Shown here piece by piece: positions 31,690 to 38,594 of a stretch of 47,245 bases of DNA (positions within the stretch are counted from its first letter, which is position 1; each line of letters begins with the position of its first letter). Location of the stretch: the IMG/VR virus record IMGVR_UViG_3300015360_000068, positions 1 to 47,245 of that record; one strand, written 5' to 3'. The stretch is from a virus. The notes beneath the pieces were generated by a model. The model saw nothing but the letters and a program-made list of their open reading frames with translations, did not search any database and had not been told where the DNA came from. The position numbers and the translations under genes were made by a program.

Positions 31690-34158
31690 ATGTCCTACAC
31701 GCCTCGCCTGCCGATGCTCGCGCACCAAGCCGCGGAGCACGCGCACTCCCGGGAGCTGGAGGTGCGGGCACTTTGGTGGATGATGGGCTGCGTCGACGGG
31801 GAGACCGAGTTCCTGTCGCGGTCGGGCTGGGTGCCGATCCGGCGTTGGGAAGGTCAGCAAGTAGCCCAGTGGGACAGGGCCACGGGTGCCGCGGAGTTCG
31901 TTGACCCGCAGGGCTTCCAGGTGCAGTCGTGCACGCGCGCGTTCCACATCTCCGGCGCACGTGGCACCGATCAGGTGGTCAGTCCCGAACATCGCGTACC
32001 TGTTCTGGCAAGGCGCGGAATAGACCGCGGGCGCGTGCTCCTTGCGGAGGAACTAGTGGCGACGCTGCGTCGCAGCACGAGCAACATACGGCTGCCTTCG
32101 AGCTTCACGATGCCACTGCCCCGCGGCGGCGTGGGCCTTTCGCCGCAGGCGCTGCGCCTTCAGGTAGCGGTGATGGCGGACGGGCACTTCCCGAAGAAGA
32201 GTCGCACGAACCGGTGCGTCGTGCGGTTGAAGAAGGCGCGCAAGATCGAACGGCTGCGCACACTGCTGGCCCTGTCCGGCACGGAGTATCGCGAGCGCCC
32301 AGAGCCCGCGACGGGCTTCACGATCTTCTGCTTCGACGCTCCCGTCCGGCAGAGGCGATTCGCCCCGTGGTGGCGCGTTGTGAACGAGCAGGACCGTGCA
32401 ACGATCCTCGACGAGGTCGTGCACTGGGACTCCCACATCAAGGCTGTCGGCAAGGGCTGGTCGTTCTGCTCGGCTTACGAGGACGACGTGGACTTCATCC
32501 AGTTCCTTGCCGCATCCGTGGGCTTCGTCACAAGCAAGGCGCACTCACGCGGCTACTGGTATCTGTCGGTCCGGGGCACGCGCACCAACGGCTACGTCGT
32601 GACGCGGCACAACGTCAAGGTCGTCAACCCCGGGCACGTGTACTGCTTCACACTGCCCAGCGGCTACTGGATCGCGCGACGCAACGGCCGCATCTTCCCG
32701 ACGGGCAACTGCGGCAAGACGGCCCCTGTCATCCACACCGCGGCGCACCTGTTTCTGGCGAAGAAGATCGACCTGCTCGTCGTCGTGTTGCCCAACGGCG
32801 CGCTGGGCAACTGGTCGCTCCGCGAGATCCCGAAGCACCTGGGCGATCCGGTAGCGGCGCAGACGCGCTGCCTCGTGTGGGCGAGCAAGCGGGCGAAGAC
32901 CAAGACCTTCCAGGCCGAGTGCGAAGCCGCGGTGCAACACCGCGGGCTGCTCGTGGTCGAGATCAGCTACGACGCGATCGTCCGCGCCGGCGGCGATTTC
33001 ATCGTGGCGCTGCTGCACAAGCGGCAGGGCATGGTGGTCCTCGACGAGTGCACCAAGATCAAGACGCCGAGCAGCGAGCGCACCCGCGCAGCGATGCGCC
33101 TGGGCAAGCTGGCGAAGTATCGCCGCGTGCTGACGGGCACGCCGGTCGACGACAACCCGTTCGACTGCTACATGCCGCTGAAGTTCCTGCACCCTCTCGC
33201 GTGGGCGCCCCTGGGCATCTCCACGTACTCATCCTTCAAGGCGTTTTTCGGCGTGTGGGCGACGGGCTACCGCAGCAACAACGGCCGGCGGCAAGAGTTC
33301 CCGTTGCTCACGACCTACCGCAACCTCGGTGACCTGCGGAAGCGACTGGAGGCCGCGGGCTCGCGGCTGCGCAAGTCTGAGGTGCTCGACCTGCCGCCCA
33401 AGGTCTATGTCGTGCGGGAGTTCGATTTGTCGCCCACGCAGACGCGGGTCTACCGCCAGTTGCGCGACGACGGACTCACGGTCGTGAACGGCGGGCTGCT
33501 GTCGATCACTCACGCGCTGGCGCTGCTCACGCAGCTCCAGCAGGTGACCGGCGGGTACACGTCGTCGGAGGACATGGGCCGGCAGAAGCTGGGCGACGAA
33601 CGCCCACGCGTCGACCTGCTCATGGAACTGGTCGATGAGGCCGGTGCCCAGTCGATGATCGTGTGGGCACGCTTCCGCGCGGAGATCGACGAGATCGAGG
33701 CCCGGCTGCGCGCGGACAAGGTGACGTTCGTGCGGTACGACGGATCAACGTCAGCGGCCGACCGGACTGCCGCAGTGGATGACTTCCAGGCCGGCAAGAT
33801 CAAGGTGTTCCTGGCCAACCCGGCAGCGGCTGCGGAAGCGCTGACGCTGCACAAGGCGACGGTGGTCGTCTACTACTCGAACAACTTCAAGCTCGGCGAG
33901 CGCGCGCAGAGCGAAGATCGCGCGCACCGTATTGGCCAGACGTGCTCCGTGCTCTACGTCGACATCGTCGGTGTCCTCAGCAACGGCGAGGGCACGGTCG
34001 ACGGCAAGATCCAGCAGGTGCTGCTGGAAAAGAAGGACGTTGCCGGGCTCATCACCGGCGACATTCCCGGGGTCGCCGTCGTCGACGACCGAACCTCCTG
34101 GGAAGCAACGACGCAGCAACACAAACGTCGCAAACGTTTGCTCGCCATGCTCCGATGA
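31690..34158 (+). CDS. SNF2-type (SF2) DNA helicase with an intein in its P-loop
   Basis: The 822-aa precursor would splice to a 515-aa helicase. Before the intein are 33 residues ending ALWWMMG; after it the sequence resumes CGKTAPVIHTAAH, so the joined P-loop is MMGCGKT. Other SF2 motifs are intact: MVVLDECTKI (motif II), VLTGTPVDDNPF (III), a C-terminal RecA lobe with VRYDGSTSAADR and ANPAAAAEALTLHKA (V), and AHRIGQT (VI). Phage SNF2-like helicases act in replication, branch migration or transcription. The helicase cannot bind ATP until the intein is removed. It lies between lysis-type membrane genes, away from the main replication block. The next gene starts in its stop codon. Confidence 0.85.
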   Translation: MSYTPRLPMLAHQAAEHAHSRELEVRALWWMMGCVDGETEFLSRSGWVPIRRWEGQQVAQWDRATGAAEFVDPQGFQVQSCTRAFHISGARGTDQVVSPEHRVPVLARRGIDRGRVLLAEELVATLRRSTSNIRLPSSFTMPLPRGGVGLSPQALRLQVAVMADGHFPKKSRTNRCVVRLKKARKIERLRTLLALSGTEYRERPEPATGFTIFCFDAPVRQRRFAPWWRVVNEQDRATILDEVVHWDSHIKAVGKGWSFCSAYEDDVDFIQFLAASVGFVTSKAHSRGYWYLSVRGTRTNGYVVTRHNVKVVNPGHVYCFTLPSGYWIARRNGRIFPTGNCGKTAPVIHTAAHLFLAKKIDLLVVVLPNGALGNWSLREIPKHLGDPVAAQTRCLVWASKRAKTKTFQAECEAAVQHRGLLVVEISYDAIVRAGGDFIVALLHKRQGMVVLDECTKIKTPSSERTRAAMRLGKLAKYRRVLTGTPVDDNPFDCYMPLKFLHPLAWAPLGISTYSSFKAFFGVWATGYRSNNGRRQEFPLLTTYRNLGDLRKRLEAAGSRLRKSEVLDLPPKVYVVREFDLSPTQTRVYRQLRDDGLTVVNGGLLSITHALALLTQLQQVTGGYTSSEDMGRQKLGDERPRVDLLMELVDEAGAQSMIVWARFRAEIDEIEARLRADKVTFVRYDGSTSAADRTAAVDDFQAGKIKVFLANPAAAAEALTLHKATVVVYYSNNFKLGERAQSEDRAHRIGQTCSVLYVDIVGVLSNGEGTVDGKIQQVLLEKKDVAGLITGDIPGVAVVDDRTSWEATTQQHKRRKRLLAMLR
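31789..32709 (+). other. Intein (307 aa) with a LAGLIDADG-like endonuclease region
   Basis: The intein spans precursor residues 34-340. Block A starts at Cys1 (CVDGETEFLSRSGWVPI). Block B is VVSPEHRVPV with its conserved His. Block C is RLQVAVMADGHF, and a later FIQFLAASVGFV fits block E, so a homing endonuclease domain is present. Blocks F and G are HVYCFTLPSGYWIARRNGRI and FPTGN. The C-terminal Asn is preceded by Gly rather than the usual His, a known variant. The first C-extein residue is Cys. Insertion falls inside the Walker A motif, a favoured intein site. Confidence 0.9.
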
Positions 34159-37376: not shown

Positions 37377-38594
37377 ATGGAAGACTGGGTCTGGACGGAG
37401 CAACAGCAGGCGGCGATCGACAAGGCGACGGCTTGGCTGGCGGAAGGGCGTGAGCCGATCTTCCGGTTGAGCGGGCACGCGGGCAGTGGGAAGTCGGTAA
37501 TGTCCCGCGCGCTGGCGGCAACTGCGAAACGCGTCAAGTTCTGCGCGCCCACCGGAAAAGCTGCCGCGCGCCTGCGCGACTTGGGCTGCCCGAACTCGAC
37601 GACCGTGCACCGGTTGATCTACACACCGGTCAACGACGAGGAGATCCAGCTCCTAGAAGTCGCGCTGACGGGTCTTCAGGAGCTATTCGCACAGACAGAA
37701 GACCCCACGGAGAAGGCGCGGTTGTCGGAGAAGGAGCGCGTCACGTCACAGCAGCTCCGCACCATGCAGAACGAACGCGGGGTCAAGTTCGTGCGCAACG
37801 AGGCCAGCGACCTCCCCGAGGCCGATCTCGTGGTGGTCGACGAGTCGTCCATGGTCAGCAGCGACATGGCCGAGGACTTGTGCTCGTTCAACGTGCCCGT
37901 CCTCGCCCTGGGCGATCCTGCGCAGCTCCCCCCGGTGCAGGGGGTGGGCTTCTTCAGCGAGAAACCGCCGGACGTCCTGCTGACTGATGTGCATCGGCAG
38001 GCGCTCGGGTCCCCTATCCTGGGCGCAGCGACCGCGGTGCGCACGGGCAAGAGCTTCATGCCCTACGTGGACGGGGACGCGCTCCGTTACGTACGGCGCG
38101 GCGAGCGCATGGACGACGACTACGTCAAGCAGACGCAGATCGTCTGCGGCCGCAACGCGACACGCTACGAGGTCAACCGGCGCGTGCGCGACCTCTTGGG
38201 CTTCGGTGCGTTGTCACCCTACCCGGTGGTCGGTGACCGGATCATTTGCAAGCGCAACGACTACAAGCAAGGGCTGCTGAACGGTGATCTCTTCGTGGTC
38301 GAGGAGGTCGGTCAAGTCTGGAAGAACGTGATCGCGCTCGTTGTGTCGCAGGGGATGCGGGCTCTTCCTGTTCTTGCGCAGCTCGACCGTTTCGTGGACG
38401 GTACGGCCCCCTTGCGCAGCATGGCCACGCCCTTCGAGTTCTCCTACGGAATCACGGTGCATGCTGCCCAGGGATCGCAGTGGGATGAGCTGATCCTGCT
38501 CGACGAGAACTACTGCTTCAAAGCCAACAAGACGAAATGGCTATACACCGGCATCACCCGCGCAGCAAAACGCCTGACCATCGTGCAGACTTGA
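37377..38594 (+). CDS. Dda/RecD-like SF1 DNA helicase
   Basis: 405 aa, with GGAGG (37364-37368) 8 bases before ATG 37377. The motifs are those of a 5'-3' SF1B helicase: WTEQQQAAIDKA (Q motif), LSGHAGSGKSV (Walker A, residues ~31-41), FCAPTGKAAARL (Ia), LVVVDESSMVS (Walker B), LALGDPAQLPPV (III), FSYGITVHAAQGSQWDE (V) and WLYTGITRAAKRL (VI). Dda-type helicases clear proteins from DNA and remodel forks during phage replication. The stop codon lies in TTGAC at the end of a TnpB element, so the C-terminus may have been altered by that insertion. All motifs are complete. Confidence 0.85.
   Translation: MEDWVWTEQQQAAIDKATAWLAEGREPIFRLSGHAGSGKSVMSRALAATAKRVKFCAPTGKAAARLRDLGCPNSTTVHRLIYTPVNDEEIQLLEVALTGLQELFAQTEDPTEKARLSEKERVTSQQLRTMQNERGVKFVRNEASDLPEADLVVVDESSMVSSDMAEDLCSFNVPVLALGDPAQLPPVQGVGFFSEKPPDVLLTDVHRQALGSPILGAATAVRTGKSFMPYVDGDALRYVRRGERMDDDYVKQTQIVCGRNATRYEVNRRVRDLLGFGALSPYPVVGDRIICKRNDYKQGLLNGDLFVVEEVGQVWKNVIALVVSQGMRALPVLAQLDRFVDGTAPLRSMATPFEFSYGITVHAAQGSQWDELILLDENYCFKANKTKWLYTGITRAAKRLTIVQT

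Follow-up and report, generated by a model that had tools for sequence, protein, structure and literature searches.

A predicted bifunctional intein with a class 3-like centre in the P-loop of a phage SNF2-type helicase

The interrupted helicase gene and its insert

The stretch analysed here, which we call the window, comprises the 47,245 bp of one virus record. It encodes a terminase, a portal, a major head protein, a tape measure and tail proteins, together with replication genes for a Dda-like helicase, a DNA polymerase and a primase; this combined structural and replication gene set indicates a tailed phage with a siphophage-like layout. One open reading frame runs from an ATG at 31690 to a stop at 34158 and encodes a precursor of 822 aa in which residues 34–340 form an insert. 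The flanks of the insert belong to an SNF2-type helicase, as judged by Pfam (SNF2-rel_dom, 3e-15; Helicase_C, 7e-14) and by a match to the PHROG 62 DNA helicase. The junctions read WWMMG|CVDGETEF...IFPTGN|CGKTAPV, with the Walker A loop split as MMG|CGKT, and the spliced product calculated from the sequence is 515 aa long. The gene is divided as follows:

31690..31788, + strand: N-extein of the SNF2-type helicase, 33 aa, ending in WWMMG; aligns to the intein-free helicase L003
31789..32709, + strand: predicted intein, 307 aa, a Hint splicing domain with an inserted LAGLIDADG endonuclease domain; full-length homologues in unrelated exteins, structural model and Foldseek matches
32710..34158, + strand: C-extein, opening with Cys+1-Gly-Lys-Thr and holding the rest of the SNF2 domain, the Helicase_C domain and the stop; Pfam and PHROG 62

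Comparison with uninterrupted homologues defined the insertion site. The intein-free helicase of L003, 44% identical, reads GLWWEMGCGKTKPVI and aligns without a gap across the junction, and the site is likewise empty and gapless in several cultured-phage homologues. The insert itself recurs in other proteins: tblastn against annotated phages matched it in 175 records, 170 of them with at least 80% coverage of the segment, at 23–33% identity and with E values down to 8e-40. Most matches end exactly at residues 1 and 307, and the host genes encode RtcB, PhoH, a RecD/Dda-like helicase, a primase-helicase, RNR and DNA polymerase. An intein would be expected to recur in this way, as one module with identical ends in unrelated proteins, and an ordinary helicase domain would not; the latter possibility was rejected on the strength of these homologues and of the intein-free helicase relatives.

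Single-sequence searches of Pfam, NCBIfam and PDB (phmmer) with the intein alone returned no match, a result that by itself would have pointed, wrongly, away from an intein. The Hint and LAGLIDADG similarity expected by an earlier, sequence-only reading of this DNA, missed at the single-sequence level, emerged from family-level and structural searches. Pfam LAGLIDADG_3 was matched in 14 of 49 aligned family members. An AlphaFold2 model of the intein, computed from the alignment of these 49 members (mean pLDDT 95.3), is predicted to adopt the Hint fold and was matched by Foldseek to the solved endonuclease-bearing inteins TliVMA (1e-13), PhoVMA, PI-PfuI and PI-SceI, and to the free LAGLIDADG enzyme I-DmoI (~1e-5). 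Whole phage inteins match the model at TM 0.8–0.9. Sensitivity differed in the same way in IMG/VR, where a scan with a single protein gave L002 only and alignment-based scans gave hundreds of stretches.

The insert is thus in frame, has exact junctions, is absent from homologous exteins and carries Cys1, the block B His68, a terminal Asn307 and Cys+1. Homologues, empty site and model together bear out the earlier proposal that an intein with a homing-endonuclease region exactly splits the P-loop of a phage SNF2 helicase. From its sequence and predicted structure we consider 31789–32709 to be a complete bifunctional intein that belongs to a large family in phages, splicing and mainly a mobile element, with a probability of about 0.88. 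That the segment is instead a decayed, non-splicing insert or an ordinary helicase domain is very improbable: this reading could draw on the weak match to single-sequence profile libraries, but every splicing residue and both exteins are intact, and the module is found in many unrelated proteins and is missing from relatives. The window intein is a further member of an already known kind, from a phage intein family that is large and otherwise ordinary. A point against the bifunctional reading is that the window intein shares only 44% identity with its nearest known relative.

Endonuclease domain, insertion sites and mobility

The sequence-only reading had named a LAGLIDADG-like MADG motif. This motif is present (D131) but is not the sole one, as a second, ATILDEVVHWDS (D214), was found, giving two LAGLIDADG helices that each end in a catalytic acid:

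32143..32184, + strand: first LAGLIDADG helix, ending in MADG (D131); helix 119–131 in the model; D131 in 46 of 49 members, otherwise Glu
32386..32433, + strand: second LAGLIDADG helix, ending in WDS (D214), motif ATILDEVVHWDS; helix 200–213 in the model; D214 in 48 of 49 members

With both catalytic acids conserved the endonuclease looks intact; its activity is nevertheless not assured, because Ser215 follows the second catalytic Asp where most relatives have Gly.

Insertion sites were compared over 148 non-redundant members, the sample used for all family counts below. Ninety-seven lie between Gly and the next Walker A residue, G|xGK[ST], 15 lie in RtcB (VDIG|CGM) and 11 in anaerobic RNR (Q|[TC]PF). 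The P-loop exteins include SNF2, DnaB, FtsK, RecA/UvsX, RecG, Dda, PhoH, primase-helicase and terminase proteins, and the family inserts three residues ahead of GK|T, the classic site described for TerL. The occurrence of one family at the same Walker A position across ATPases suggests that conservation of P-loop codons lets one element spread across gene families.

Two further observations concern the sites. RtcB RNA ligases split at VDIG|CGM are encoded in L060, L063, L070, L142, L145, L146, L149, L153 and L157, and the likeness of this site to a P-loop is limited to Gly|Cys-Gly. The Dda-like helicase of the window (37377–38594) has an unoccupied P-loop, GHAGSGKS, of a site type that the family has invaded in Vibrio phages.

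In a tree of 26 helicase proteins, intein presence needs six changes, five of them forced by supported branches. The helicase nearest to that of the window, from L003, is empty, and the nearest inteins, those of L002 and L071, sit in SNF2 helicases whose exteins are more distant from the window's. An empty nearest helicase and a presence scattered over the tree indicate that the element is, or was, mobile, and the pattern fits homing into P-loop codons with frequent gain or loss. We infer that the LAGLIDADG domain, with its two motifs, probably makes a cut at the P-loop codons of helicase genes that lack the intein, whereupon repair would copy the intein in; the scattered presence supports such endonuclease-driven homing. 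The intein would be kept mainly as a mobile element that by default splices out.

Splicing residues and related inteins

Eight residues, Cys1, Thr6, Glu7, His68, Cys286, Arg297, Gly306 and Asn307, are invariant in the 49 aligned members. The principal splicing positions of the window intein are these:

31789..31791, + strand: Cys1, candidate block A nucleophile; 49 of 49 aligned members and 142 of 148 non-redundant members, Pro in five true members
31981..31995, + strand: block B S65-P-E-H68-R69 (SxxHR); His in 148 of 148, Arg in 118 of 148; counterparts Ser65, His68 and Arg69 in AceL NrdHF
32644..32646, + strand: block F (C2:4) Cys286, where class 3 inteins have their initiating nucleophile; 49 of 49 aligned members, 144 of 148 and all five Pro1 members
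32701..32709, + strand: block G Thr305-Gly306-Asn307, Gly replacing the usual His; G306 in 145 of 148, N307 in 146 of 148

The +1 residue was always Thr, Cys or Ser in the 148 members. Cys1, the block B His, block F and the terminal Gly-Asn|Cys, all picked out in the sequence-only reading, are present and are conserved in nearly all of the family. At the family edge, four distant relatives (L175, L174, L186 and L190) have Cys1 and carry Asp or Ser in place of the block F Cys, which makes them ordinary class 1-like members. L151 and L152 hold a second intein of the wider family downstream in the same reading frame (VVRN|CYDDQTE...), which ends in Ser-Gln rather than Gly-Asn and is followed by Thr.

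Among solved structures, the one closest in sequence to the family profile is the AceL NrdHF intein (E 8e-10, PDB 6zgq), a naturally split class 3 intein with Ala1 that initiates via its block F Cys124 (PMC7891396). It shares with the window intein Ser65, His68, Arg69, a block F Cys with Pro four residues after it and a Thr-Gly-Asn end, and like the window family it is of phage-like origin. It differs in having Ala1 and Met at B:12 and in being split, without an in-frame endonuclease, whereas the window intein contains a LAGLIDADG domain, begins with Cys1 and has Val at B:12. The mycobacteriophage RDF, TOPRIM and TerL inteins resemble the family in their penultimate Gly, P-loop insertion and endonuclease (Kelley 2016, PMC5050341), and the TOPRIM intein is a full-length homologue, 29% identical to that of the window; the classic P-loop insertion, however, is at GK|T, three residues later than the family's G|xGK[ST]. 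Msm DnaBi1 also combines a helicase P-loop with a block F Cys (PMC6195587), but is a WCT class 3 mini-intein that lacks Cys1, is inserted before the P-loop Ser and has been shown to be oxidation-sensitive. The Deinococcus radiodurans Snf2 intein, compared through its description as cited in PMC3196547, shares the SNF2-type extein and the block F Cys and differs, by that description, as a WCT class 3 intein without Cys1.

These relatives contradict the suggestion that Asn cyclisation may be slow on account of the penultimate Gly, which had been taken as atypical. Within the family Gly is standard at this position (145 of 148 members). The mycobacteriophage RDF intein, with its natural Gly, splices completely, and its G316H variant needs over 5 h for about half-complete splicing (Kelley 2016, PMC5050341); G145H abolishes activity in AceL NrdHF, whose Arg69 is 2.5 Å away from the scissile carbonyl and whose R69A variant splices more slowly (PMC7891396). 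Given an Arg at the same position in the window intein, its active site is, by analogy, most likely built around Arg69 and Gly306.

The conserved residues and the studied relatives point to autocatalytic splicing. The 822-aa precursor would be made with an interrupted Walker A loop, a thioester would form at the N-terminal junction via Cys1 and/or the block F Cys286, and the chain would then be transferred to Cys+1. Asn307 would cyclise without the need for a penultimate His, probably aided by Arg69, and joining of the exteins would restore MMGCGKT in a helicase of 515 aa.

The initiating cysteine and the interrupted P-loop

Judged by sequence, the window intein is a class 1 intein with a class 3-like centre. 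Class 3 inteins are considered monophyletic, having arisen once, and an intein that loses its N-terminal nucleophile is normally unable to splice (PMC3196547, PMC4031507). Their W (B:12), C (F:4), T (G:5) triplet corresponds to Val70, Cys286 and Thr305 in the window, two of three, and the presence of Cys1 and the lack of Trp at B:12 rule out membership of the WCT class 3. The intein does possess the class 1 initiator, Cys1, but it also has Cys286, and relatives with Pro1 exist.

The account we lean towards is the canonical class 1 route, in which Cys1 initiates and Cys286 has only an assisting part, comparable to that of Asp in many class 1 inteins. It agrees with the conservation of Cys1, with the absence of Trp at B:12 and with literature reports that class 1 inteins with a block F Cys also occur. 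It sits less easily with the conservation of Cys286, which matches that of Cys1 (144 vs 142 of 148), and with the fact that the cysteine repeatedly lost is Cys1.

Members without Cys1 were found by searches that omitted the first residues and by re-reading the junctions with a family HMM. Five carry Pro1. That of L155 (2498–3442) lies in an SNF2 helicase at the same P-loop site as in the window, and those of L156 (2489–3412), L208, L231 and L255 lie at GP[FIY]G|SGK[ST] in terminase-like genes. All five retain the block F Cys, the block B His, the Gly-Asn end and Ser/Thr+1, and none has ambiguous bases. The inteins of L155 and L156 seemed to begin with Leu or Asp because of where tblastn set the boundary, but their DNA reads Pro1; an apparent Pro1/Leu1 copy in L268 reflected a misplaced boundary and was left out of the set. 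A tree built without residue 1 gave about five separate Cys1/Pro1 changes, with the block F Cys always kept; constraint to one clade was rejected for all five Pro1 members (p-AU 8.7e-5) and for the four at the terminase site (p-AU 0.003). The repeated loss of Cys1, with nothing else given up, suggests that splicing in this family can be carried by the block F Cys, the direction from Cys to Pro being assumed from the majority state.

A second, more tentative possibility is that Cys286 can or does initiate and that Cys1 is dispensable or auxiliary. The active site matches that of AceL NrdHF, which has Ala1 and is proven to be class 3; Cys286 is nearly invariant; the five Pro1 members, one of them at the very site of the window intein, have otherwise kept the splicing residues through five independent changes that a single clade does not explain; and a change from Cys to Pro (codons CCA, CCC and CCT) takes at least two base changes. 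Against this, Cys1 is retained in ~96% of members and so is probably important in those that have it, the class 3 Trp at B:12 is missing, and the Pro1 members are putative splicers, with the direction of change again assumed. In its widest form, which we hold just as tentatively, the family would consist of dual-nucleophile inteins with a dispensable Cys1, class 3-like forms would arise repeatedly through the two-base Pro change, and the window intein would be a Cys1-retaining intermediate.

Whichever cysteine initiates, the interrupted P-loop makes it likely that the helicase precursor is inactive before splicing. The sequence-only reading extended this to a regulatory role, in which the helicase would stay switched off until triggered, for example by redox state or temperature. 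The location in the P-loop and the two invariant cysteines are compatible with such a role, and DnaBi1 offers a precedent: it too interrupts a P-loop, its nucleophile is a block F Cys, and it is sensitive to oxidation, upon which this Cys enters a disulphide (PMC6195587). A switch is conceivable by this analogy only, and we regard it as improbable: nothing in the window sequence points to one, with neither a regulatory residue nor a conserved non-catalytic extra cysteine seen there, intein-free relatives are common, and related inteins with the same active site splice fast.

Natural pairs within the family, such as the Cys1 intein of L158 and the Pro1 intein of L231, make the step from class 1 to class 3 directly testable. 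If the block F Cys does carry the reaction, class 3-like inteins would arise repeatedly, as opposed to the single origin of the current literature.
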